From the NCBI GenBank assembly GCA_947568835.1, contig OX387606.1:18943940-19007939 (forward strand): 64,000 nucleotides of DNA, written 5' to 3'. Of the stretch, positions 13,001 to 34,034 are shown in pieces; position 1 is the first letter of the stretch; each line of letters opens with the position of its first letter. This stretch comes from Protonemura montana. Lineage: Eukaryota; Arthropoda; Insecta; Plecoptera; Nemouridae. Under the pieces are notes generated by a model. The model saw nothing but the letters and a program-made list of their open reading frames with translations. It did no database searches and was not told the DNA's origin. The translations under genes and the position numbers were made by a program.

Positions 13001-14001
13001 GATCCCGTCTCGTTGGTGGTTCAGAGATAGTTGATACCTGTCGATACCTGCTCGGTCTAATAACTTGAAATTCCACAATTTACTTTCGACGTCATGCCTA
13101 GAAAACGAGGCTGCATTTGGTTTCTTACGAACTCACGCCCTGTGGCGTTTTGCTGGTGCGACTGTACGAGTTGTTAATCAGCTCTGTTTATCATGATACC
13201 ATCTCAATTATCTCTTCTTTCAACACGGGCACCGTTCCAAATTCTTGTCCCTTAAGGCACCCTCCAAATATTTCTAATACTAAAAGCCCATTGCGGTAAT
13301 TGCGTCGGTTTCCTCATTATATTGCCCAGTTTTCATAAAGTGATAACTTTGGCCTTACCAAAGCAATTATCTGAAATTAGCTCAAGTTCGAGCGTTTCAT
13401 TTCTACGACAAATTACGCACGCTATCGCCTCTACTTCTGACATCTCCCGCGCGTTTCCACCCCACGTGTTCAAAATTAGTCGGTAATAGACAGATCTATT
13501 TCCAGATCGTATCAAGGTTTCGCTTGGTCGCTTAGCGAGCCGCCGTGAACTTAGCGCGCTCTTGTCGTTTGTCTCCCCATCTTGAGTGCACAGCTGCACA
13601 TTTTGGTCGACGCCGCGCCCGGCTGCGGACGCCACTATCACCGCACTGGGCTCGACGCGCGCCGCCCACGGGGAGAATCCGTTTGTTTGGGTTGTGTTTT
13701 CAAAACGTAAATATAGTCTCGGCGAAAGAGAACGTTATTGGACACGGCCCAGATGCGGTGGCATTGGCATGTGTTTTATTACTTCGAGGGAAACGCGAAA
13801 CGCTCTCCGGACGCTCACATCAAAGTGAAATAAATTATGAGAGCCACATTAATTACAGACAACTTCCCCCTGGCCCCTGAGTGTACTTTCAGCTGGTGCA
13901 TGATGATTTAAAATACTTGTATGTTATTATATTGTGTTTGTTCTTATTGGGTGCTTTGAATTTCAAATACGGTGGTGGTGGTGGTGTTTCTTTTCTCTTA
14001 G

Positions 14002-17000
14002 GACGATCAGGAGTTAGCTATGGTACCTCAGTTTCGGACCAAAAAGGAGGTGGAAATGTTAGTTCGACACACGGCTTCCCAGGGGCGTCCAAGGGGGGTG
14101 TCGGCATGCCGTTCGCTCCCGACGGTGTGGACGGTAGCCAGGCGATGGAAGATATGGGTGCCCTGCCGCAAGGCGATGAAACCTTGCCTTGGCGACGTGG
14201 CAGGCGACCTCAGGAGTCTGCCGCTCCTTGGCGGAGGCCCTCGAGAGATCGGTCGCTGGAAACAAAGCCCGTTGAGCAAGCCAAGCCGTGGACGCAGGAG
14301 GAGGTCAAGCTTAAGAAAGCACCCCGAGAAAGAAAGGAGTTGCCGAAAGAACAAGTCGAAGAAGTCGCATTGAAACCCACGAAGCGTGAGAAGAAAGACA
14401 TTCCTCGTGAAAAACTTGAAGAAGTTGACTTGAAGCCCGTTAAAAAACAGCCGAGAGAGCAGGCTGTGCCCGAAGGATATAGTTTGCGGCCGGTGCGACG
14501 GGGATCGAAAGATGAGGGCGATGACGACTCGTCCATCTATCGCACAACAGACGAGGACGACTCGAGCTTGCTTCAGCTGGATAGGCACTCTGAGGAAACG
14601 GTGCAAGCTCCGTGGCGAAAACCGAGGGACAAACCGCAGGGGGTGGAGAGCTTTTTGGAAGAAGACGACTCTTCTTTGCTCGATATCGAGAGAACGGACG
14701 ATGAGTCTGCAAAGGCCGTGCCGTGGGCTACTGAAGCTGTAAAACTGAAGAAAGCAATTCGGGAGAAGAAAGAGATTCCCAAAGAGACAGTAGAAGAGGT
14801 TCAGCTGAAGCCAACGAAGCGCGAAAAGCGAGCCATTCCAAAAGAAGGCATCGAATCTGTGGATCTGAAACCAGTCGTCAAGGAGACTGACGTCGAATCT
14901 CTCCTGCGCACGACGGACGAAGACGATGCGAGCTTCCTTAAGGTCGACCAATCCATCGAAGAGGACGCCAAGTCGAAGCAAGTTCCTTGGACCAAAGAGA
15001 CTGTGAAATTGAGGAAAGCCTCTGTTGAGAGGAAAGAAGTTCAAAAGGAAAAACTGGAAGAGGTATCTCTTAAGCCGACGAAACGAGATCGCAAAGAAAT
15101 TCCCAAAGAAGGAATTGAACAGGTTGAGTTAAAGCCAGTGAAGAAGGTTCAACAGATTGAAGATATTGAACAGACATTATTGAGAATGATGGACGAAGAT
15201 GATTCGAACATGTTGGTTATTGATCAGTCGGAGACGGTTGAGTCTCGGCTTCAGATAAATGAGGAGGACGACTCTTCTTTACTGCAAATTGACAGAAGAC
15301 AAGAAGAAGACAAACAACGAATTCCTCGAAAGGTGAGACCAGTTGAGGTGGTAGCAGAAAAGCAGGTACCTTGGACGCAAGAGAGCTTAAAGTTGAAACG
15401 AGCGCCCAAGGAAAGGAAGGAAATACAAAAAGAAACAATGGAGGAGGTTTCATTGAAGCCAGTTAAACGTGAGAAGAAAGATTTGCCTACAGAAGGATTG
15501 GAGCACGTCGATCTGCAGCCAATTCGCAAGGACGTTTCAGAGCCAACAAAAAAAGAGCTCGCTTCTGAAGAATCCGAGAGCGTTCTAAGGATCACCGAAG
15601 AAGATGATAGCAACATCCTTCGTATTGAAAGAACACTAAACGAAAAGGCGAAGGGACCTAAGAAAATGCAGCCCGAGGTAGAAAGCGTGTTGACAATCAC
15701 CGAGGAAGATGATAGCAACATTCTTCAGTTAAAAGAATCACTCGAGGAACGGAAAACCAGTCCCAAAAGACCAATTCCAGTGGCTAATGAACCAGAACCA
15801 AAAGCTGTGCCGTGGACAGAACAAGTGGCGTTGAAACGACCCATGAAAGACAAAAAAGTGTTAGAAAAAGAACATTTGGAAGAGGTTCAACTGAAGCCGG
15901 TTAAGAAACCAAACAAGGAAGTTCCAGCAACGAAAGAGAAGGAAATTGAGGATGAGTTGAAACCAGATCAAACTTTCGAGACAGTTGTCTCTGAAGAGGA
16001 TACGTCATTGCTAAATATCAGCGAAGATGTTGAACAACAGCAAGAGGCAGGTCTCCCTTGGCGTAGAGGCAAAGACGCACCTAAGAAAATTGTACCAGAA
16101 GTCACTCCAGAACCAGAGAAAATCACGCTCAAGCCTACTCGTAAGACAAAGCCACAAGAAGAAGTAGTCGAAAAGGAAACCGTGTCTCTGAAGCCAGTTA
16201 AGAAAACTACTAGGCCTGAAACCGAGGAGGCAGAGACAACAACATTGAGACCCACTAAGAAGCCGGTTCCAGAGCTTCTTAAAGATGAAACCATCAAATT
16301 AAAACCAGTTCCAATGGAACCCGTTGAACAGCCAAAGGAAGAACCCACGCCAGAAGAGACACAGTTACCTTGGCGACGAGGTAAGAAGCCCGCGCCAGCG
16401 GAAGAAGCTACCATCGCACCTGTGGAACCACAGAAAGCTAAGTTGCCCGAAAAGGAAGTCGAACAGCAGGCTGCTCAGGCCCCTTGGCGCCGCGGAAAGA
16501 AACCAGAAACTGAGCCAGAGCCAGAGCAACCCTCGTGGAAACCTGGCAAAGGAAAGATACCACAAGAAGTTGAGGAAAAGGAAGAAGTCGTTTTGAAACC
16601 TTTCAAGCGTGGAAAGCCAAAATCTCCTGAAAAAGACGAAATAAAGTTAAGGCCATTTAAAAAGGAGAGACCTGAAGACGAGACGGAGGAAATTAAACTC
16701 AAACCCTTCCAGCGGGGGAAAAAAGAGGAGCCAGAAGTTCGCGAGGAAATAACTTTAAAGCCGTTCAAAAAGACTCCTATTCCTGATCATGAAAGTGAGC
16801 AGGCTAAGCTTAAGCCAATCAAGCGAGAAAATTCACCCGAAAAGAAGGAGGAGATAACATTAAAACCAGTCAAGAAGGAAAAGAGAGAAGAACATCAGGA
16901 AACCACCCAAACTGTAGATCTAAAACCAGTTAAGAAAACTCTAGAGCCTGAAAAGGTTGAACCAGCAAAGGAAGAAAAACCAGCTGAGCCTGTCAAAATT

Positions 17001-20000
17001 CCAGATATGTCGGAAGCAGAGGAGCCAGTTGAAAAAGACAAATCAGAGGTTTCTTGGCGTAAGAAAAAGCGTCCGGAAAAACCGGTACCAGAGCCAGTAG
17101 CTCCCGAAGAGACTCTTCCCGAGTTTGTTGCGGTCCCTGAGGAGCAACAGCCCAAGGTTGAGCAGACAGAAACTACTGCCGTCTCGTGGCGTAAAAAGAA
17201 AACGCCAGCTCAAAAACCGGAACCCCAAGTCGAGGAGAAATTCGAAGTGAAATTGAAGCCGGTGAAAAGACAAGAAGTGCAAATAGAAGAGAACCGTGAG
17301 ATTATAACCTTGAAGCCAGTCGTAAAAGAAACTCAAGAAGAGAAAATTCCAGTTCCAGAGAAAATCACTGACGACGCAAAGCCAACTGACGATATTCCTG
17401 CACAAACGACAGAAGTCTCTTGCCGAAAGAAGAAGACAAAAACACCAAAGCCGACTCCTGAAGTTGAAACAGAAGTTAGGGAAATTGAGCCTGCTCCGGT
17501 ACCCATTGAGGAAGATAAACCTGTCGAAAGAGTCGAAGACAAAGCGTCACAGCCTTGGCGAAGAGGGAAAAAGCCGGAGCCAGAGGAGGAACCTGAAAAA
17601 CCTACATGGAAACCTGGAAAGGGTAAAATCCCACATCAAGAGGAGGAAAGAGAGGAGGTTGTTCTCAAGCCGTTTAAGCGTGGTAAGCCGCAATCTCCAG
17701 AAAAAGATGAAATAAAATTGAAACCAATAAAAAGGGAAAAACCAGAGGATGAGACTGAGGAAATAAAACTGAAACCATTTAAACGTGGGCCAAAGGAAGA
17801 ACCTGAGAAACGAGAACAAGTAACTCTAAAACCATTTAAAGGTAAGGCTATACCCGAAGGAGAAACCGAACAAATTACACTCAAACCATTTGAAAAATCC
17901 ATCCCTGAACCTGTACTTGAGCCAGTTGAAATTCCGGACGAGCCGAAACCAGAAGAACCGATTCCTGAAGAGAAATCAGAAGTATCTTGGCGAAAGAAGA
18001 AGCCAAAGACTGTGAAGGTAGAGAAAGTGGAGGTTGAAATTATACCTGAACCTGAACTTGAGCCAGTTAAAATTCCGGACGAGCCGAAACCAGAAGAACC
18101 GGTTCCTGAGGAGAAATCAGAAGTATCGTGGCGAAAGAAGAAGCCGAAGACTGTGAAGGTAGAGAGAGTGGAGGTTGAAATTGTCCCAGAGCCGGTTCTT
18201 GAGCCAGTGCAAATCCCGGATGAACCTAAACCAGAAGAACCGGTTCCAGAAGAGAAATCAGAAGTAGCTTGGCGCAAAAAGAAGCCAAAGACTGTGAAGG
18301 TAGATAAAGTGGAGGTTGAAATTATACCTGAACCTGAACTTGAGCCAGTTAAAATTCTGGACGAGCCGAAACCAGAAGAACCGGTTCCTGAAGAGAAATC
18401 AGAAGTATCGTGGCGAAAGAAGAAGCCAAAGACTGTGAAGATAGAGAAAGTGGAGGTTGAAATTGTCCCGGAGCCGGTTCTTGAGCCAGTGCAAATCCCG
18501 GATGAACATAAACCAGAAGAACTGGTTCCAGAAGAGAAATCAGAAGTATCTTGGCGAAAGAAGAAGCCGAAGACTGTGAAGGTAGAGCGAGTGGAGGTTA
18601 AAATTGTCCCAGAGCCGGTTCTTGAGCCAGTGCAAATCCCGGATGAACCTAAACCAGAAGAACCAGTTCCAGAAGAGAAATCAGAAGTATCTTGGCGCAA
18701 AAAGAAGCCAAAGACTGTGAAGGTAGAGAAAGTGGAGGTTGAAATTATACCTGAACCTGAACTTGAGCCAGTTAAAATTCCGGACGAGCCGAAACCAGAA
18801 GAACCGGTTCCTGAAGAGAAATCAGAAGTATCGTGGCGAAAGAAGAAGCCAAAGACTGTGAAGGTAGAGAAAGTGGAGGTTGAAATTGTACCTGAACCTG
18901 TACTTGAGCCAGTTAAAATTCCAGACGAGCCGAAACCAGAAGAACCGGTTCTTGAAGAGAAATCAGAAGTATCGTGGCGAAAGAAGAAGCCAAAGACTGT
19001 GAAGGTAGAGAAAGTGGAGGTTGAAATTGTCCCGGAGCCGGTTCTTGAGCCAGTGCAAATCCCGGATGAACCTAAACCAGAAGAACCGGTTGTGGAAGAG
19101 AAATCTGAAGTATCCTGGCGCAAAAAGAAACCAAAAACTGTGAAGGTAGAGAAAGTGGAGGTTGAAATTGTCCCGGAACTGGTTCTTGAGCCAGTACAAA
19201 TTCTAGATGAACCTTTACCGGAAGAGCCAGCTCAGGAGGAGACGGAAGACATTATCATTCCGGAGCTGGTTAAATTGCCTGATGCACCGCAGCCTGAAGA
19301 AACGACTTCTGAAGAAAAAACTGAAATTTCTTGGCGAAAGAAGCTGAAAACTAAGCGCGTGACAATACCTAGAGGACCACTGGAGCCTCTTGAGGAGCCT
19401 GAGGAAGAAAGCTGGCCAAAGAAGCGTCAACCAAAGGTGAAAAAACACAAACTGGTGGCAACGCAGATCGGTTCAACCGAAGAAGAGGACACAGTCGTTG
19501 AAGAATTGAAATCTAAAGCTCAAATGGTTTTACTTCAGCAGAAAGAGAAACAAGTAGTGAAGTCAGACAAATCTGTGGTTTCCCAAGAGGAAGAGGACAC
19601 CGAGGAGGTTTGGCACCAAGAGATGAAAGTGGACACACTATCAAAGAAGAAGGTAACCAATCAATTGAGACTGCAACACTCAAGCGAAGACTCGCCGCTT
19701 CAATCACTTGAAATCGTGACAGCGAAGCGCGTCACCGAAGGCATGCTCAGGCTTCCCGAGGAAGACGTCGTCGAAGAGGAGGAAGTTCGTGAAGACCGGC
19801 GCACCGTTCGCCGGTCGTTGGTTCAGAAGTCAGCAGTTGAAATGTCAACCTCGACCAAAAACATTCCGCCAAAGTTCATCCAACGCCTGGAGCCGGTCAT
19901 CGCCGAACTTACCAAACCGGCAAAATTCACTTGCAAAGTCGACGGCACTCCTTTCCCCGAAATCACATGGTACCGCAACGAACAGGTGGTCAAAGCGACC

Positions 20001-20142
20001 GAACGCCACCTGATCACATCGCTCGAGAAGACGGCGACGTTGGAGATCACCGAAACGAGACTAGAAGATGCCGGCATGTTTTCTTGTCGGGCTACCAACC
20101 TGGCAGGGGTGGCAACGTCCACCGTGAACCTACTGGTCTTGG
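14002..20142 (+). CDS. sls: sls PEVK-1 exon (2,047 codons) ending in one Ig
   Basis: Acceptor ttcttttctcttag, donor TTGG|GTATGT, phase 1 at both ends. It is the elastic PEVK-1 region. A Gly-rich start leads to: about five modules combining PWT.E..KLKK, ERKE.PKE, LKPTKREK and LKPVKK; eight acidic DEDDSSLL-type motifs; PWRRGKK motifs; two copies of an LKPFKRGK block (near 16,490 and 17,560); nine 47-residue SWRKKKPKTVKVE repeats (17895-19163); and an acidic stretch. The last 90 residues (from PPKFIQRLEPVIAELTKPA, with FTCKVDG, WYRNEQ and DAGMFSCRATN) form an I-set Ig. The amino-acid bias suggests an unfolded spring in the I-band. The long open frames on the other strand are by-products of the repeat bias. 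Confidence 0.93.
17895..19163 (+). repeat. 141-bp coding tandem array, nine units
   Basis: Unit starts fall exactly every 141 bases (17895, 18036 ... 19023). Each unit encodes 47 residues built on PEEKSEVSWRKKKPKTVKVE. Units fall into an EPELEPVK type and an EPVLEPVQ type. A tenth, decayed unit follows from 19164. The constant length keeps the frame open and points to unequal exchange. Confidence 0.93.
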
Positions 20143-20991
20143 GTATGTGGGACTGAATCACGAGCATGTGTGTAACGACTTGTGGTCATGAAACTGTTTG
20201 GAGTTCGGCCAAGCAACATGCATCGTATGGTTATGTTTCACACGTAAATTGTTAATTTAATTACCGCATGATTTACTTCTTTTGATCCATAGTTAATATT
20301 TTGCTTGTACTAGAGGTTTACGTATGTTTGTTTTTCGTAGAACTGTGTGTTATAAACCTTGGCTATAAAGCAAGCAACAAAGGTTTATAAAGCGATGGAA
20401 GTAGATCTAAATAGCTCTGGCTTGTATGCTGGGTCATTTGGCTTCCTAGCTCGTAATAATGACCCTCGACGGGGCTCAATGCCAGCGCCGCGAGCTCAGT
20501 TGTCTCCTAGCTTTGCTTTGCACAAGACACCCTTCCTTAGCTCCTCTCCTTAATCCCATCCTTAGCAATGTAGCGCATCCACAACTAATTACCCAAATCA
20601 CAATTAATCAGAGCAATGGGCTCGAGAGATAGTAAGTCTTGTGATCCTCGTGGCATGGCATTTGTACTTGTTCAACTCACCACCTGAGAGCGCTAATAAC
20701 CTGTTGTTTTTGTGAACAGTGATGCATAGTAACATAAATTTCAGTGCATAGTGTTTGAATATTTGAGTGATTAATTATCAATAACATACATTAATCGAGA
20801 CAGTCTGTAAAATGTGTCTACCATTGATGCCAAGAGTCAGGTTAAATTGGCTCTTAACCAGTTAATTCTGTAGAGCTCATTTTAAACGTTTGATTCTGAG
20901 GCTAACTTTAAACATGAGCGCTAACACCTGTTTAACTTGATTGTCAATCTTTTTCCCATCTAATTTTAGTCGCGTTCACTGTGAATTTCAG
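20143..20991 (+). other. Intron, 0.85 kb
   Basis: AT-rich intron. A second acceptor-like TCTAATTTTAG lies about 22 bases before the used TGAATTTCAG, but it would shift the Ig frame. Nothing else recognised. Confidence 0.65.
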
Positions 20992-24222: not shown

Positions 24223-24755
24223 TCTCTTATCACAAAACCTACATGACAAATTCCACACTCACAAGATGCCACCACGCTATATTACGGCTTACAGACATTG
24301 AAACAGTGGCAGCGGTACATGCACAGAACTCACCACGGACCACCACAACATCAACGGCACATTTTATTTGTCACATCATTTTACATGTGCATGACTGATT
24401 TCATAGCGTTTAAATAACTTAACTTTACGCTGTTTTCTTGTACTTTTAATTTTATTACAATACAAGAAATCCAGGGAACCAAAGATTTTGACAAAAGCTA
24501 TAATGCATTTAGTTGAATGCAGTTGTCCCAGTTCTATGACTCTGTGAATTAGTTTACTTCTTTGGTTCCTGTGTTTCTCGTATTCAATCAATTGTCTTTT
24601 AATTTGTGTACATATATTTTAATTTTTTTTTTTTGCATCATATTCGTGTTAAACTGGCAATATTTTGCATTTTATTTGTAAATCGTCCATTGTTTGTAAA
24701 GCCAATGTTAAGTACCTGCTTAAGTACCCGCGCTAACCGCTCTCTGTGTCTCTAG

Positions 24756-25754
24756 GTATCGTCGGCACCAAGGAATACCGCAAGCCCGAATGGGTCACCC
24801 ACATGGAGGAACTCCAGGAAGCCTTGCGAGGTAATGAAGTCACTAGCAGCGTCAGGTCGAGGTCTAGGACCGCTTGCATGCCGCATGGCAGTGACCTGTC
24901 CGTGGACAGTCTTGAGTGCAGATGGTCACGTCCACGCGCAGAGGAAGCCGTCGACCCCTCTCAAGGGAGCATGTCGGCCGGAGAGGAGTCCGTGTTCGTG
25001 TCCAGCGCAAGTAGTTTGTGTTCAGAAGATGTGCGCGTTGCTCGTTCTAACGCTTCTGTCCTTGTGCCGTTCCATTTGTCGCCCCACAAGTCCACTACAC
25101 ACACTAACCTCGCCACGCTGGGCGGCGACGAGACTGACAAGCTCGATTGTCCACTGAACGTAATGCACGACTACGTAAAATCCCATCCGATATCGATATC
25201 AGCAGTCATAGACGCGCTGGAAGCAAACATACCGGAGAAACCAGAGACTGATTTCAGTCGCAAACGGCGGGAAAAGTCGGAGGAAATAGTTGTGTTCGTC
25301 GACAACCCCAAGCTTGACGCGCACCTGCCGTTCTACCTATTGTCCCCGATCCGGGAGAGCAGCGAGCACTCCACCGCCAGCAGCAGCTCCAGAAAGTCTG
25401 CGCAGCCAGAGTCGACACTAAGGCTGTTGTCGGCGTCGTGCGAAGCGTTGCAGGGGACGTACGACGTCTCGATGAGCTCCGAGACTCAAACTAAGTACCA
25501 GACGTTCCCGCGCTCCAAGATCCCAGTTCTCTCGCCGATGCGCAACAACGCCTGCTATGACGTGCCCGAGGACCCGTCCATGTACCCTCTGGAGCCTCGC
25601 GAACTGGATCCGGAGAGCTTTCAACAGCTGCACAACGCCGACAGCCAAGAAGAGCTGCAAGAATTCCTTCTCTTAGAGAGTCAATGCATGACCACAGATA
25701 ACAGGCGAGGAATAGCGTCCGCCTTTGTCGCCTCTGACGACGAGGAAGAATCAG
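24756..25754 (+). CDS. sls: sls exon: unique Ser-rich region, two possible donors
   Basis: Acceptor gtgtctctag, with donor TCAG|GTAACA at 25754. The first 25 codons (GIVGTKEYRKPEWVTHMEEL then QEALR) end at a second donor, CGAG|GTAATG after 24830. Both donors leave phase 1 and join the next exon in frame, so a short (24756-24830) and a long form are possible. The long part adds 308 residues without Ig features: Ser-rich segments, SISAVIDALEANIPEKPE, a possible YDVPEDP phosphotyrosine site and LEPRELDPESFQQLH. GC-rich codons show it is coding. Function unknown. Confidence 0.8.
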
Positions 25755-26301
25755 GTAACACGGGAAAGAAGTCACCTTAGCCCCCGCAATATTCTTGCAT
25801 TTACACACTTATCTCAATTTATGTTTCCAATCGCATAAAACTACAATACTTTCCGTTCACGTTTCATCGAAATAAGCACCATGCATTCACTCTCAAAACT
25901 GGGTCTTCACCACCACACAAAAATAATGTTACGATGACCTTCATGACTGTTCACATAATCATGGTTTCATAAACGAGGTACCACGCTCTGCTGCACTCAC
26001 CTCACAAGGACCTTTGTAACACCACCTCGTGCTGTTTGTTGTGTTTTTGGTGCACCCAACATCTAATTATTCACCCTGTCTCGTGTGCCTTGTCCATGTA
26101 ATCGCATGTTTGGTGTTTCATGTCGTTCTCATAGACCAATGACGGAGCACAAAGAATGCCAAACAATATTTCTTCTCAGAGTACAAGGTACGTATGACCT
26201 GCAAATATCATTCTGAATTGAGTGAGATCGTTTTTTTTCCTGTAACAGTTTTTGACAGAAACATATTGTTGAACCGGTCTGTATTTTTTTTTCTCTTGCA
26301 G
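25755..26301 (+). other. Intron, 0.55 kb
   Basis: No recognisable element. Ends in a good acceptor, tttttttttctcttgcag. Confidence 0.65.
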
Positions 26302-26507: not shown

Positions 26508-26690
26508 ATATTGTTTGGTATCGCAACGACAAACTAATTTCTAACACGAAGAATGTCAAAATCAACACCAAGAACTTGAAGTCGTCGTGCAGCATCCTTT
26601 CGGTGACTCCCGAAGATCAGGGTACTTACGTCTGCAAGGCAACGAGCCAGATCGGAGAGACGACGACCAGGGGCAAACTATACGTTCAAG
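26508..26690 (+). CDS. sls: sls exon: second half of Ig
   Basis: Acceptor aatttcttccag, donor CAAG|GTGCGA, phase 1 at both ends. It encodes DIVWYRNDKLISNTKNVKI, CSILSVTPEDQGTYVCKAT and SQIGETTTRGKLYVQ. With the previous exon it makes a complete, disulfide-capable I-set Ig. Confidence 0.89.
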
Positions 26691-26780
26691 GTGCGAATAG
26701 ACCACGTTGCAGACCACGGTCTGCAAAGATCACCGTACGCTTCATGGGTTTCATTTTTTACCAACCCATTTAATTTACAG

Positions 26781-26928
26781 AGTTGCCCCGAGACAAGAAG
26801 AAGGAAGTCGAATTGCAAAAGGCTAAAGAGGAAGAGGAGAAAATCAAAATGGAGAAAATACAGCTTGAAAAGAAGCGCTTAGAAAAGCGCCAGAAGAAGG
26901 GAACCGTAACGTTCGAAACAGAAACAAA
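26781..26928 (+). CDS. sls: sls exon: charged single-helix or coiled-coil segment
   Basis: Acceptor tttaatttacag, donor ACAAA|GTAAGA, phase 1 in and 2 out. It encodes ELPRDKKKEVELQKAKEEEE and KMEKIQLEKKRLEKRQKKG, a dense alternation of Glu and Lys expected to form a stable single helix. Confidence 0.86.
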
Positions 26929-27096
26929 GTAAGATCCATGCTGTATTTTAACTGCAATTTTGTGCTCTTTAAAATGTTTCCACTATAATAATTTTTTTCA
27001 CTATTCATATTTACAGGTAGCAAAAATTCTTCGATTATTTCTGCTTTATTATTTGATTAAATCTGTCGCTTATGAACCTTTCTCATTTCTCCACAG

Positions 27097-27472
27097 AGAG
27101 ACCGCGGGTGTGAGCGTGACCCAAGTAATGGAGTCCACCTCGACAATCACGGAGACGACGCAGTCGGTGAAGGCCAAGCAAGTCCTTTCAGTAGCGGAGT
27201 CCGTGCAGACTTCGGCGGTCGCCTCGTGCAAGAAGATCGACGACAAGACGGAGGCGGTCGCCGAGATTGAGGAGAAGGCCGTGAAGACGGCGCCGATCCA
27301 AGAGTCCATCACCGTGTCTGAGATCCAACCGGAGGACGTGGTCAAAGAGCTGCCCGATAAGAAGCCAAAGGCTCGCCGTGCGAAGCCGGAGAAGAAGGTT
27401 TCAGTCACCGAGACAGCCACCGTGACGCAGGTCCAGACGTCGTTGGCGGAAGAGATCATGATTCACGAGGAG
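27097..27472 (+). CDS. sls: sls exon: Val/Thr/Glu repeat-type segment
   Basis: Acceptor catttctccacag, donor GAG|GTAGGC, phase 2 in and 0 out (125 codons). It encodes TAGVSVTQVMESTSTITET, ESITVSEIQPEDVVKELPD and KKVSVTETATVTQVQTSLAE. The SVTQV/VTETATVTQVQ units resemble the repeats of the giant exon at 35953, as an outlying member of that array. Confidence 0.86.
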
Positions 27473-27771
27473 GTAGGCGTTGCATTCGAATATCTTTCTG
27501 GCAGCGTGTAAAAACAGCACCTTCTCGCTTTAATTCCAGCGAATACTTTCCATGCAATCGTATCACTCTTCAAAACGCAATAATAATTTTTTACCTAATA
27601 ATAATAATATTAATAAATGTGGATAGAACTAATCATTTTTCAGAAAATACTTTTTCCAAATAAAACACCATCTCCGTAAAATAAGGGACATCTAAATGAT
27701 AAAATAAGTTTTCAGTCCTCTGACACATTCAAGTTCCTTGAATTCTGTTGACGACCCATTGCCCTTTGCAG

Positions 27772-28014
27772 ATCCGCATGGCAACCGAGATTGAGGAATT
27801 AATGCAGACCATCTCTGCCCGCGAGTTCGGTGCCGGCGAGTCGCCTCTCCGCGAGCTGGCCAAGATCGGCTTCCTCGTGCGTCACGGCGTGTCAGTCAAC
27901 GAGATTACAACCCTCTACCAGGCCGACCTGTTCCCCGCGCTGCGCACACCTCAAGCGCAGTCTGCGCTTGTGCAGGTGGTCGAGCGCAGGGGATACGGCA
28001 CCCTAGTGTCGCAG
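27772..28014 (+). CDS. sls: sls exon: predicted helical domain, part 1
   Basis: Acceptor cctttgcag, donor CAG|GTAAGC, phase 0 at both ends (81 codons). It encodes MATEIEELMQTISAREFGAG, LRELAKIGFLVRHGVSVNEI and QSALVQVVERRGYGTLVSQ. This is a balanced, globular composition quite unlike the PEVK around it and probably all-helical. I recall similar sequence in other insect Sls proteins but cannot search here. Confidence 0.87.
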
Positions 28015-28336
28015 GTAAGCGGAGAAATGTGTGGCGTTATGCGGAGGGGGCGTTTGTGTTTCAATTCGATTCGTCAAATTTCGAATCTTAACGTCATCTA
28101 TCTGCACCTTTTTTGAAGAGAGGATAAATTTTGGAAGGAAGTTAAATTTTTCCTTTAGAGTCAGCAAATCTGAACATTATTATTTAAGCTGTTAGCTATT
28201 AGCTTTATTACCAATATAAGTAATGTGTAAATTTATGAACAGATTACAAAAATTATTTGGGTCAAACATGTAGTAGTCATATTTTATCTTATCTAGTAGA
28301 AAGTTTCTCTACTTTACATCTTAACTCATTTTATTC

Positions 28337-28340
28337 CCTT
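28337..28340. repeat. Left target-site duplication CCTT
   Basis: CCTT immediately left of the GGGTC terminus, repeated right of the other end. A 5-bp CCCTT reading is possible if the right terminus is one base shorter. Confidence 0.7.
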
Positions 28341-29737
28341 GGGTCATTCCATATCAAGTGCCCACACTCAAAACCTTCACTATCTCAGAACTTGACGAAA
28401 TTTTCAGGAGGGTTAGAACACCGGAAATAAAAAATCTCTTTTAAAGTTTTTTTCCATATGTCTAGCGGTTTGCCCGTGGCAGGGGATGGAAAAATAAAAT
28501 ATTTTACTTTTTGCCCCGCACGGCCATTCACTATATTCACTCTAGCGTTTGAACAAATAAACTTAAAACAATGGGATTAGTTCTAAAATGATAATCGTGC
28601 TTTCATTAACAAGAAAAAATGCATAAATTGCTTACTTATCAAGTTTAGGGGTAGAAAAAATCCACCCTTAAATTTCAACCCTTAATAACTCGAGAAGTAA
28701 TATTTTTTTTTTTTTTTGTTTTGTTGTGAAGCATCTCCTGTCTATTATCTTTCCATGAAAAAAAAATTAATCATTAACAGCCGTATGATCAGAAGTTATG
28801 AGATTTTTATTGTATAAATGTGTGTGCATTTAGTTGTGTTTCTGCAAGTCTGTTAGCATGGTCCATGCAAATCACCCGTAAATTGATAGATTATATAATT
28901 TTTCAGTTTAAAAATTGTGTGTAAGTACTACAAAGATTCTTTTTACTCACTCATTTCTTCGTTTCACTCTGACCTATCACTCTGGCTTCTTCGAACAACG
29001 GCGAGGAGGAGAACACCCGCGTGGCTACTGAGTGCTCAGACACGGGTACGAAGCAATGCAGTTTTTGCGTGCCGGGAATTGGCCGGGATGACGCAAATCG
29101 TGTGGCTAGCACCTGTTCTGTGTCTTGGTGCTCCTCAATAGTTCCGAATGTGAAGTTGATGGTCGGGATGGCTTCGACCGCCCAATCGAAGAGTTGCCGG
29201 GGTGTTATTATTTGCGACTCGTAGGGGCGCTGAAGACTCGCCCGCGCTGCCAGCCGCTTGACCGTCCCTCCGACGCCGTCGCAGGCGCTCTTCCCATGTG
29301 ACGTCGCCGTGAAATGCCACTCCACGTCGGCCCCAAAGTCTCTTTGATAGTGGCACAAGTTGGCAAAATTTTTCCTATTTTTATATTGCGAGGCTGCCCC
29401 ATCAGAAAAATAGAACATCTTCTTTATGGTCTGAAATTTATTGTGCAAAAAGCTCACGAGTTTTTTTATGAATAGATGCACTGCGACAGTGTTGTGGATC
29501 AAACTCTCGGAAATTACAACAAAGCTGATGTGGCGCTCTTCCCCGCCCTCTTTGTAATATGCCACGAAGGGGTGGATGGTGGCGGACGCATTGTTCCAGT
29601 GGAACCCCTGGGCCTCGTCTTGTAGCACGAACGCATAGTTTTCGGCAAAATCACAGATCACCAAAAACTCGCCGGGCAGGAGACCGCACTTGATGTCCGA
29701 TTGGTGCGAAGATTGTTTTTTAGCAATAAAAGAGTGG
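28341..29737. repeat. Left arm of transposon palindrome
   Basis: 1,397 bases that pair with 30149-31545, equal in length to the base. A 15-T run inside (about 28704-28718) matches a 15-A run in the other arm. Confidence 0.92.
28951..29737 (-). pseudogene. Inverted partial copy of the transposase C-terminus
   Basis: The minus strand carries the same C-terminal 260 residues (HSFIAKKQSSHQ to GQSETKK) as the + copy at 30149-30935, as part of the left arm. It lacks the N-terminal half. Confidence 0.85.
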
Positions 29738-30935
29738 ATTTTCAAAATTTGCAGAGCTGCGGCCGAAGAACTGTGTGTTGCCTGGTGCCAGTGGGACTCA
29801 TTCGGTGTGCGTGTGCACTATCCACCAAAACGTCAAGCTAATGATCATCGGTGCCGACTTGACGAAGTTGACAGTGGACCAATCTTATCCGATAACATCT
29901 TACCACGACTGCCTTGAGCAGTTGGTCTGCGACAGTCCCCTCCCCGAATGCCATCTAGGCGAGTGTGAGGAGTGCCCGGGCATCGAGCCGTTAAAGGAGC
30001 GCCTCACGCAACTGCTGGACGACGAAATGGTGGACAATGTTATCTACAAGCAGTGGGAGAGCACCGACCGATGCACCCTGCAAACGCACATCGATTCATC
30101 CGAGGAATTCGTGGACAGTTGTTGTGCAAAATTAGTTGCTCTGTGCCGCCACTCTTTTATTGCTAAAAAACAATCTTCGCACCAATCGGACATCAAGTGC
30201 GGTCTCCTGCCCGGCGAGTTTTTGGTGATCTGTGATTTTGCCGAAAACTATGCGTTCGTGCTACAAGACGAGGCCCAGGGGTTCCACTGGAACAATGCGT
30301 CCGCCACCATCCACCCCTTCGTGGCATATTACAAAGAGGGCGGGGAAGAGCGCCACATCAGCTTTGTTGTAATTTCCGAGAGTTTGATCCACAACACTGT
30401 CGCAGTGCATCTATTCATAAAAAAACTCGTGAGCTTTTTGCACAATAAATTTCAGACCATAAAGAAGATGTTCTATTTTTCTGATGGGGCAGCCTCGCAA
30501 TATAAAAATAGGAAAAATTTTGCCAACTTGTGCCACTATCAAAGAGACTTTGGGGCCGACGTGGAGTGGCATTTCACGGCGACGTCACATGGGAAGAGCG
30601 CCTGCGACGGCGTCGGAGGGACGGTCAAGCGGCTGGCAGCGCGGGCGAGTCTTCAGCGCCCCTACGAGTCGCAAATAATAACACCCCGGCAACTCTTCGA
30701 TTGGGCGGTCGAAGCCATCCCGACCATCAACTTCACATTCGGAACTATTGAGGAGCACCAAGACACAGAACAGGTGCTAGCCACACGATTTGCGTCATCC
30801 CGGCCAATTCCCGGCACGCAAAAACTGCATTGCTTCGTACCCGTGTCTGAGCACTCAGTAGCCACGCGGGTGTTCTCCTCCTCGCCGTTGTTCGAAGAAG
30901 CCAGAGTGATAGGTCAGAGTGAAACGAAGAAATGA
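29738..30935 (+). CDS. Transposase-like protein, N-terminus missing
   Basis: Encodes about 400 residues, open from the palindrome junction to the stop before 30936. It begins FAELRPKNCVLPGASGTHS and VCVCTIHQNVKLMIIG. It continues with VICDFAENYAFVLQDEAQG, HWNNASATIHPFVAYY, YFSDGAASQYKNRKNF and HGKSACDGVGGTVKR. The Asp residues in DFAENY, FSDGAAS and CDGVGG are candidates for an RNase-H-like DDE/D catalytic triad. Related uncharacterised proteins are frequent in arthropod genomes as far as I recall. No ATG is needed at the junction because the frame runs in from the other arm: the original N-terminal exons are absent, so it cannot be a complete transposase. Confidence 0.75.
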
Positions 30936-31545
30936 GTGAGTAAAAAGAATCTTTGTAGTACTTACACACAATTTTTAAACTGAAAAATTATATAATCTAT
31001 CAATTTACGGGTGATTTGCATGGACCATGCTAACAGACTTGCAGAAACACAACTAAATGCACACACATTTATACAATAAAAATCTCATAACTTCTGATCA
31101 TACGGCTGTTAATGATTAATTTTTTTTTCATGGAAAGATAATAGACAGGAGATGCTTCACAACAAAACAAAAAAAAAAAAAAATATTACTTCTCGAGTTA
31201 TTAAGGGTTGAAATTTAAGGGTGGATTTTTTCTACCCCTAAACTTGATAAGTAAGCAATTTATGCATTTTTTCTTGTTAATGAAAGCACGATTATCATTT
31301 TAGAACTAATCCCATTGTTTTAAGTTTATTTGTTCAAACGCTAGAGTGAATATAGTGAATGGCCGTGCGGGGCAAAAAGTAAAATATTTTATTTTTCCAT
31401 CCCCTGCCACGGGCAAACCGCTAGACATATGGAAAAAAACTTTAAAAGAGATTTTTTATTTCCGGTGTTCTAACCCTCCTGAAAATTTCGTCAAGTTCTG
31501 AGATAGTGAAGGTTTTGAGTGTGGGCACTTGACATGGAATGACCC
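30149..31545. repeat. Right arm of transposon palindrome
   Basis: Inverted copy of 28341-29737. It carries the C-terminal part of the transposase frame in + orientation. Confidence 0.92.
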
Positions 31546-31549
31546 CCTT
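31546..31549. repeat. Right target-site duplication CCTT
   Basis: Matches the left flank of the transposon. Confidence 0.7.
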
Positions 31550-32207
31550 ACTTTTATAATTTTGTAATTCTGTCCTTATGCACTCCACTTCCCCTAAACG
31601 CAACCCGCTATTCATACCTGGCACCTCCACCAAGAAAAATAGTTTATACCTCGAAAAAATTACTTTTAAAACAAATAATGGAATATTTTGGGATAATATG
31701 TAAACAAAACTATCGTATCATTTAGTTCTGAGCATCATTTTGTGTCCCTTACCCCTAAACGCAGCCCGCAGAGCAAACTTGGAATGAACTGATATTAAGT
31801 TGGAAATTGAAAAGCGTGTGATACTTTGCATGCACGTCAGAGACAAGGAGACAGGTGTTTGAACTTAGGGCTCCGATTCCTGCACGTGGTGTGACAAAAC
31901 CAGCCATAAATATAACATTTTGTAAAGATTGCTTCATTTCAGAGCAGAACGTGTCCACGTGAGCGCACATAGTAATCAACTAATTGCAAAGATAATCGTG
32001 ATAAACCAGAGAGAATAGGTTGCTGTGAGCACTTCGATGTGTCTCAGTACATCTTGCAGTTGAATGGTCACCATTTAAAACAAGAATACTTTGTGAAGTC
32101 CTTTTTGAGACCTAGACCCAGATCTAGAACTGAAGGGATTTACCGAGGGTGAACGTACTAAGAAAAAGAGTAAGAATAACACCTGTCGGGCTGGTTTGTG
32201 TCTTCAG

Positions 32208-32378
32208 ATCTTGACCGAAGAGTCGACGATGGATGAGACCGTCTTCGCTGCCACAGTTGGTTTCCGCGCGTTCATGCGTATGGTGGAGCTCAACTACGCC
32301 ACGGTCGAGGAGGTCATCACTCACTTTTCACCCGAAGACTTCAGCCCAAGTGCTTGGGAATCCACCGAGGTATCACAG
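32208..32378 (+). CDS. sls: sls exon: predicted helical domain, part 2
   Basis: Acceptor gtttgtgtcttcag, donor CAG|GTAGGC, phase 0 at both ends (57 codons). It encodes ILTEESTMDETVFAATVGF, RAFMRMVELNYATVEEVIT and HFSPEDFSPSAWESTEVSQ. It completes the globular domain begun at 27772. Confidence 0.87.
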
Positions 32379-32719
32379 GTAGGCGCAATCCTCATTGGAA
32401 CAATCCTTATCAGAGTAATTCTCGTTAGCTATCCAGCAAAGTGGCGCTGGTCTAATTGAGCCAGTCATTATACCGTGATGATAATTTTTATTATAAAGCT
32501 AACCTTACCTGAAAGAAACTAAAAATCTTACGAGTAAATGTGTTGTAGTAATGATTGCAATCCCTCAAAATTCTTGCAATTTACGTGAAAATTGTGGTCC
32601 AGTAATTGGCTCGGTAATTGGCGCAATATTGCTTTAACGTGTGAGAACCAGTTTGGGTGGCACTTTTTGTTCCTTGCCAACTGTCAAATGCAGACAAATC
32701 AACGACTTTGATGTTTCAG

Positions 32720-32780
32720 GTGGTGACAAGGAAAGCGACAGGAACTGTTGACGTTGCGGAGCGTACGGAAGTTCACTATG
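32720..32780 (+). CDS. sls: sls exon: short linker and branch point for isoforms
   Basis: Acceptor gatgtttcag, donor ATG|GTGAGT, phase 0 in and 1 out. It encodes VVTRKATGTVDVAERTEVHY. Two downstream exons fit its phase: the small exon at 33972 on the way to the giant exon, and the hydrophobic terminal exon at 33062. Confidence 0.83.
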
Positions 32781-33061
32781 GTGAGTTTATCATTCACTTT
32801 TGTCTGCTGGTTGCCAAGATTTTTGCATGGCATGTGAGTGTTAGTGTCATTTCTTAACACCCGTATCAGTAGATTGAATAAACTCACAGAAAGTTATATT
32901 TCCGTTGGTGGTAGGCATGAAAATGTTATGAAATTATGTTGGATTAAATACATTTTTTCATATTTTCTCTGAGAAGTGTTCAAATGTAAACGCATTCCAA
33001 GTAGTACCTGTGTTTTTGTGTAGAGTTGTGAAGCATGGTTGTTGTTTGAATTTCTTCTCAG

Positions 33062-33243
33062 CCTCCTCCAGCCAAGCTCTGTCGCGACCACGTACCTCCC
33101 CACTCTGCCAAGCAGACTGGTTCCCCGACGAGAAGACCCTCCAGCCCGAGTACATCGTGTTTGCTGTGCTCTGTGCCCTGTTTATTAATATTGTAGCATG
33201 GCTTGTAGGAATAGTGTTCTCATTCCAAACCGATGAACTGTGA
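33062..33243 (+). CDS. sls: Alternative terminal exon with C-terminal transmembrane helix
   Basis: Acceptor gaatttcttctcag, phase 1, matching the exon ending at 32780. It reads ASSSQALSRPRTSPLCQADW, FPDEKTLQPE, then a 25-residue hydrophobic helix (YIVFAVLCALFINIVAW, LVGIVFSF) and ends QTDEL with TGA at 33241-33243. The first half has GC-rich third positions set in AT-rich intron DNA, a clear coding signature. An AATAAA follows at 33351. Known Sls is soluble, so this would be a tail-anchored isoform stopping before the giant exon. The splice choice is predicted from sequence only. Intron continues to 33971 in the long isoform. Confidence 0.68.
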
Positions 33244-33350
33244 TCAAACGTGACCTTTCCGCAAGGATGTTTTTACTAATTTCGTATTTTATTTCTGTTG
33301 TCAATGTTGTGATATTAATGTAATTGTTTGTTTACTAGATATTATAAAGA

Positions 33351-33356
33351 AATAAA
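33351..33356 (+). terminator. Poly(A) signal for the membrane-tail isoform
   Basis: AATAAA 108 bases after the TGA, followed by T- and GT-rich sequence. Good spacing for a short 3' UTR. Confidence 0.6.
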
Positions 33357-33429
33357 ATATGTTTTTAATTGTGTGTTGATTAATACTAGTTTTTATTTTT
33401 GTTGTCATTAACTTTTAATTGTATTATTA

Positions 33430-33971: not shown

Positions 33972-34034
33972 AAAAGAGGAAGTCTACCAAGAAAACTAGA
34001 GTTGTTAAATCAAGCGCCGAGGCGGAAACACAAG
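33972..34034 (+). CDS. sls: sls exon: basic micro-exon
   Basis: Acceptor gattttcttacag, donor CAAG|GTAGGA, phase 1 at both ends (63 bases). It encodes EKRKSTKKTRVVKSSAEAET. The symmetric phase would allow skipping. It leads into the giant exon. Confidence 0.78.

Follow-up and report, generated by a model that had tools for sequence, protein, structure and literature searches.

We found that a titin-type gene of Protonemura montana probably carries an alternative last exon (33062-33243, + strand) giving a tail-anchored isoform, which would end in one long hydrophobic helix followed by five residues. The exon was studied within a window of 64,000 nucleotides, this being the whole stretch of DNA analysed, and all positions are counted from its first letter. 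The case rests on the reading frame and splice sites, on the hydrophobic run and the poly(A) signal that follows it, and above all on the conservation of the exon in one relative.

The host gene is an arthropod titin-type gene, most likely sls as judged from its domain order. When ten segments were scanned with Pfam, I-set hits were obtained in eight, with 1683-2006 below the Pfam cut-off, and no I-set hit was seen in the exon 24737-25777 or in the intronic ORF 29730-30932. Long ORFs rich in E, K, V and P span 13881-20156 and 35953-58028. I-set Ig domains and PEVK-type springs, by which we assigned the gene to the titin family, are hence both present. The giant exon at 35953-58028 holds about 7,360 open codons, with repeats of the ITIKKKRPSV or EEVAEEITIKK kind near its end. 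The exon seen at 24756-25754 within the first of these segments (GIVGTKEYRKPEWVTHMEELQEAL...), nearly 1 kb long and placed between Ig exons, gave no Pfam hit of any kind at E 0.001. The features on which the following analysis turns are listed here, all on the + strand.

27772-28014, + strand: helical domain, first half (IRMATEIEELMQ...TLVSQ), phase 0 at both ends, with relatives
32208-32378, + strand: helical domain, second half (ILTEEST...SEVSQ), phase 0 at both ends
32720-32780, + strand: last shared exon, 61 nt (VVTRKATGTVDVAERTEVHY + G), phase 0 in and phase 1 out, donor ATG/gtgagt
32781-33061, + strand: putative intron of 281 bases spliced out in the anchored isoform, acceptor ttcttctcag (8.8 bits)
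33062-33243, + strand: candidate alternative last exon, 60 residues counting the split codon at its start, with the TGA at 33241-33243, matched by P0002
33151-33225, + strand: hydrophobic run YIVFAVLCALFINIVAWLVGIVFSF, 25 residues, predicted transmembrane helix
33226-33240, + strand: tail QTDEL, 5 residues, the same in P0002
33351-33356, + strand: AATAAA poly(A) signal, 108 bases 3' of the stop
33972-34034, + strand: internal exon used by the long path in competition with 33062-33243 (EKRKSTKKTRVVKSSAEAETQ), phase-1 acceptor
35953-58028, + strand: giant spring exon, a single open frame with a phase-1 acceptor, not in the anchored isoform

The in-phase junction between 32780 and 33062 that the sequence-only reading had proposed was checked base by base and stood: the donor at 32780 leaves phase 1, and the acceptor at 33061/33062 (ttcttctcag/CC) restores that frame, with the joined product reading ...TEVHY/ASSSQALSRPRTSPLCQADWFPDEKTLQPEYIVFAVLCALFINIVAWLVGIVFSFQTDEL-stop. 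Upstream of this junction, the six exons from 26509 to 32780 are open in one frame over 393 residues. Because a split codon opens the candidate last exon and no methionine precedes its helix, it needs an upstream exon, and the closest donor of the right phase on that side is 32780, since the donors at 32378, 28014 and 27472 leave phase 0 and that at 26928 leaves phase 2. The exon competes with those at 33972 and 35953, both of which have phase-1 acceptors. Its 60 residues comprise a 19-residue linker, the segment WFPDEKTLQPE, the 25-residue helix and QTDEL, followed by TGA; helix, tail, stop codon and the AATAAA 108 bases further on were each borne out as first described. The same description had called the exon rich in GC3, which holds for its first 30 codons (0.73) but not for the next 30 (0.40, stop counted). 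In a search of predicted proteins of about 120-381 aa for the 32780/33062 junction, four candidates were retrieved and none of them scored; no transcript was found.

Using a matrix derived from 14 other acceptors of the titin-type gene, which themselves gave 0.4-11.3 bits upon leave-one-out scoring, we obtained 8.8 bits for the acceptor at 33061/33062, ranking it 16 of 471 among the AGs of the scored introns. It had been termed strong; it is a good acceptor, but an unexceptional one, and the matrix itself is a weak test, because the 12 top-scoring AGs include no modelled acceptor (0/12). Chance expectation was estimated with 150 dinucleotide shuffles of intron sequence (9,220 nt), counting every acceptor with a phase-1 ORF of at least 50 codons that ends in a hydrophobic helix and has a poly(A) signal no more than 200 nt away, and the resulting 0.0072 such exons per 10 kb is a guide only, because these criteria were picked after the exon had been seen. 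In the window, with the ORF limit set at 30 codons, four acceptors on the + strand lead to a terminal helix and two of the four have a poly(A) signal, namely that of the 33062 exon and a weaker one within it at 33116; on the - strand there are five such acceptors, none (0/5) with a poly(A) signal. The conservation described next is much stronger evidence than the shuffle expectation.

When the 60 residues were compared with 5.77 billion predicted proteins, where only proteins of about 33-105 aa sharing a five-residue word could become candidates, a single candidate was found and it was also the single match. This protein, P0002, is an 84-aa ORF on a contig of 1,165 bases, with 77% identity over 98% of the query (E 3.4e-21). 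Aligned without gaps from ASSS through the final residue, the two sequences share 46 of 60 positions, and the identity is unevenly placed, with 38/41 in the distal residues 20-60 and 8/19 in the linker residues 1-19 (Fisher p 4.9e-5). The 24 residues of P0002 lying 5' of ASSS agree with the intron frame of the window at 4/24 positions, which is the permutation level (p 0.17), so that the similarity begins at the splice acceptor; its ...VIT/ASSS is compatible, we infer, with a CAG/CC acceptor at that point. As the distal part is nearly invariant and the similarity ends at the acceptor, the exon is very probably coding, and from this comparison 33062-33243 also appears very probably to be kept by selection, with helix and tail as the constrained part. 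That the exon is both coding and conserved we regard as highly likely. A lack of conservation in related species was one of the two conditions set for refuting the sequence-only reading, and the match to P0002 answers that point. The linker contains the motif RPR, which in P0002 lies one position earlier despite the otherwise drifting linker.

The run YIVFAVLCALFINIVAWLVGIVFSF comprises 25 residues devoid of D, E, K, R, Q, H and P, has a Kyte-Doolittle peak of 2.65 over 19 residues and ends five residues before the stop. The tail-anchor criteria were those found in passages of PMC6849228, where a program examines the final 60 residues of a protein, and by these criteria the exon encodes a C-terminal hydrophobic segment of the tail-anchor kind, which supports the terminal transmembrane helix first described. 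The other coding stretches scored, in a gene whose 5' part extends beyond the window, have weaker runs: the corresponding 19-residue peak was 0.85 across six exons upstream, 0.76 for a two-Ig exon and 1.29 for the giant one. The PEVK-1 ORF reached 2.07, in a stretch starting at residue 10 of the stop-to-stop frame that is probably intronic. In passages of PMC6849228, tail-anchored proteins of human and Arabidopsis are described as enriched in K/R at both helix ends and depleted in D/E, a tendency rather than a definition, and the helix studied here departs from it, with D23, E24, K25 and E30 before it and D58 and E59 after it (exon numbering) making acidic flanks. AlphaFold models of the anchor, made for the two sequences, gave a helix at low confidence, with block means of 67-75 pLDDT.

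Retrieval signals of the KDEL type usually follow the pattern [KRHQSA]-[DENQ]-E-L. TDEL was considered as such a signal and did not match, its T lying outside the set allowed at the first position. The tetrapeptide is the same in P0002 and starts one residue beyond the hydrophobic run, and because just this one residue separates it from the helix, the KDEL receptor may fail to reach it. A location in the ER or sarcoplasmic reticulum (SR), as had been suggested from TDEL, is weak on both counts. Passages of PMC12393879 state that length and hydrophobicity of tail anchors sort them along the secretory route. By that rule a helix as hydrophobic as this one, with its 25 residues, is more like the anchors of the plasma membrane than those of the ER, an argument against placing it simply in the ER. 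Emerin, according to the same source, has one very hydrophobic helix of 23 residues at the protein end and is of the TRC40/GET client type; with this similar helix it resides in the inner nuclear membrane, and an RXR motif limits its secretory trafficking (PMC12393879, passages). The linker RPR is a possible Arg-based ER signal, read from a short motif.

Upstream of the anchor, the helical domain encoded by 27772-28014 and 32208-32378 had 12 relatives among 49 candidates, to be set against one homolog for the anchor exon, a comparison that calibrates the anchor search. Both halves lay in one ORF in eight of the 12, while two lacked the first part and two had the first half only. An AlphaFold model of P0003, made with 11 relatives, gave an all-helical domain with a mean pLDDT of 78.9, and 90 of its 183 residues scored no less than 90. 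No Pfam family reached the cut-off for the domain in the window protein, and over the 12 relatives no family was found in more than one member (best E 0.0018). The anchor was present in none (0/12) of these ORFs, which look genomic and run on into unrelated tails; P0009 and P0010 continue 20-30 residues beyond the domain, in a sequence unlike the next exon of the window. The single anchor homolog may mean either that the exon is lineage-limited or that a 60-residue intronic exon is seldom called as a gene. The intron dividing the helical domain also contains an inverted repeat at 28341-31545, with arms of 1,397 bases (28341-29737 and 30149-31545) that are 99.93% identical around a 411-base spacer. 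It holds the ORFs 29730-30935 (+), without a Pfam hit at E 0.001, and 28951-29817 (-), and probably represents either a fold-back mobile element of recent origin or a duplication introduced in assembly.

Small ankyrin-1 (sAnk1), made from an internal promoter of ANK1, has an N-terminal helix. It supplies the model for the foremost alternative, that the exon serves chiefly a short transcript begun at an internal promoter, giving a small tail-anchored protein without Ig domains that would contain the helical domain and the anchor, or less, as with the small ankyrin isoforms of ANK1. We consider this unlikely, albeit with several observations on its side. The exons at 27772 and 32208 contain in-frame methionines, the helical domain is conserved as a unit, and sAnk1, a membrane-bound ANK1 splice isoform, is a precedent from muscle (PMC12812942, passages). 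Tail-anchored proteins are moreover described as shorter than average, with a median of 288 aa (PMC6849228, passages); a small product would suit the observations equally well, and this shortness better than a huge isoform does. The donor at 32780, however, is common to the long path.

That the exon is part of an independent small gene, lying within the intron and unjoined to the titin-type gene, we find quite improbable. The split codon at the acceptor, the want of a methionine before the helix and an intron of 281 bases, which leaves scant room for another start, all argue against such a gene, and the titin-type gene itself provides the closest phase-1 donor; what would suit it is that P0002 is a lone ORF, with no neighbour in view on its short contig. 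Still less probably, the site acts as a premature poly(A) trap, cutting the output of the long isoform, with an inert peptide as by-product: a last exon with AATAAA just 5' of the 22-kb exon would suit a switch of that kind, but the peptide was kept at 38/41 distal positions, gap-free to its last residue, while the linker drifted. A chance open frame within the intron is the least credible of all, for although nine terminal hydrophobic frames follow acceptor-like sites on the two strands (a count that takes in the exon itself and its nested frame), the P0002 match at E 3.4e-21 and the shuffle expectation of 0.0072 per 10 kb stand against it.

The reading that we prefer is thus a tail-anchored isoform made through an alternative last exon of the titin-type gene, against which count the search for the junction that found no transcript, the single homolog, the acidic flanks, the low-confidence helix model and the size of a huge full isoform compared with the short tail-anchored proteins known. 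According to this proposal, cleavage at a poly(A) site after 33351 would leave 32780 joined to 33062, bypassing 33972 and the giant spring exon, and the isoform would end in the helical domain, the drifting linker, the conserved WFPDEKTLQPE, the long hydrophobic helix and the five-residue tail. We infer that its earlier parts would include the kettin Igs, PEVK-1 and the middle Igs. With five residues following the helix, insertion would have to be post-translational, and since the helix is very hydrophobic, the GET/TRC40 route is probable, very hydrophobic tail anchors being described as clients of that route in passages of PMC12393879. The bulk of the protein would be cytosolic, with QTDEL on the opposite side of the membrane, and the isoform would tether a membrane near the Z-disc or I-band (SR, T-tubule or sarcolemma) to the myofibril.

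Burkart et al. 2007 is reportedly the main paper on the Drosophila isoforms. It lies outside the scope of our literature searches, which covered titles, abstract starts and passages in one open-access full-text library and found no membrane-bound titin or Sls there. This agrees with the earlier statement of knowing no membrane-anchored Sls isoform from the literature, absence in such searches not being proof. Of six articles from that library pairing tail anchors with titin, none has a titin as its subject, as judged by title and abstract start. In seven papers in which the word was counted (PMC12063666, PMC9886278, PMC8742874, PMC13322953, PMC11081514, PMC9886281 and PMC12812942), 'transmembrane' occurred a single time, in a list of gene categories (PMC8742874), and passages of PMC10036370 contained no membrane-bound titin.

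Alternative ends would be shared with Drosophila Sallimus/kettin, and compared with Drosophila sls the site found here is just 5' of the giant spring exon. Novex-3 titin also has its own last exon, and is not known to have a membrane helix. It is a truncated vertebrate titin of about 700 kDa found in the I-band (PMC12812942, passages). As for Drosophila, kettin is described as having an early poly(A) end after Ig35, and the long isoforms as ending in five Fn domains, with no hydrophobic C-terminus mentioned in the passages concerned (PMC9886278). The PEVK spring exons of Drosophila sls are kept or skipped according to muscle type (PMC12063666, passages). A physical tie between the SR and a giant sarcomeric protein is known from small ankyrin-1 and obscurin, by which the SR is held to the myofibril, with sAnk1 mainly near the M-line and some of it at Z-discs; the role of small ankyrins in nematodes is stated as not known (PMC12812942, passages). 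That tie is made by two molecules, whereas one is proposed here.

Titin-type proteins are regarded as links from the Z-disc to the thick filament. We raise tentatively the wider possibility that some arthropods make a membrane-anchored titin, with its N-terminal part in the Z-disc or I-band and its end in the SR, the T-tubule or the surface membrane. The helix may then bind a specific membrane partner, since not just its hydrophobic character but its very sequence is almost unchanged between the two proteins. If this is true, a conserved, membrane-ended form would provide a direct mechanical link from the myofibril to a membrane system, a single molecule would do the job of the vertebrate pair of obscurin and small ankyrin, and one splice/poly(A) choice would decide between spring and anchor.
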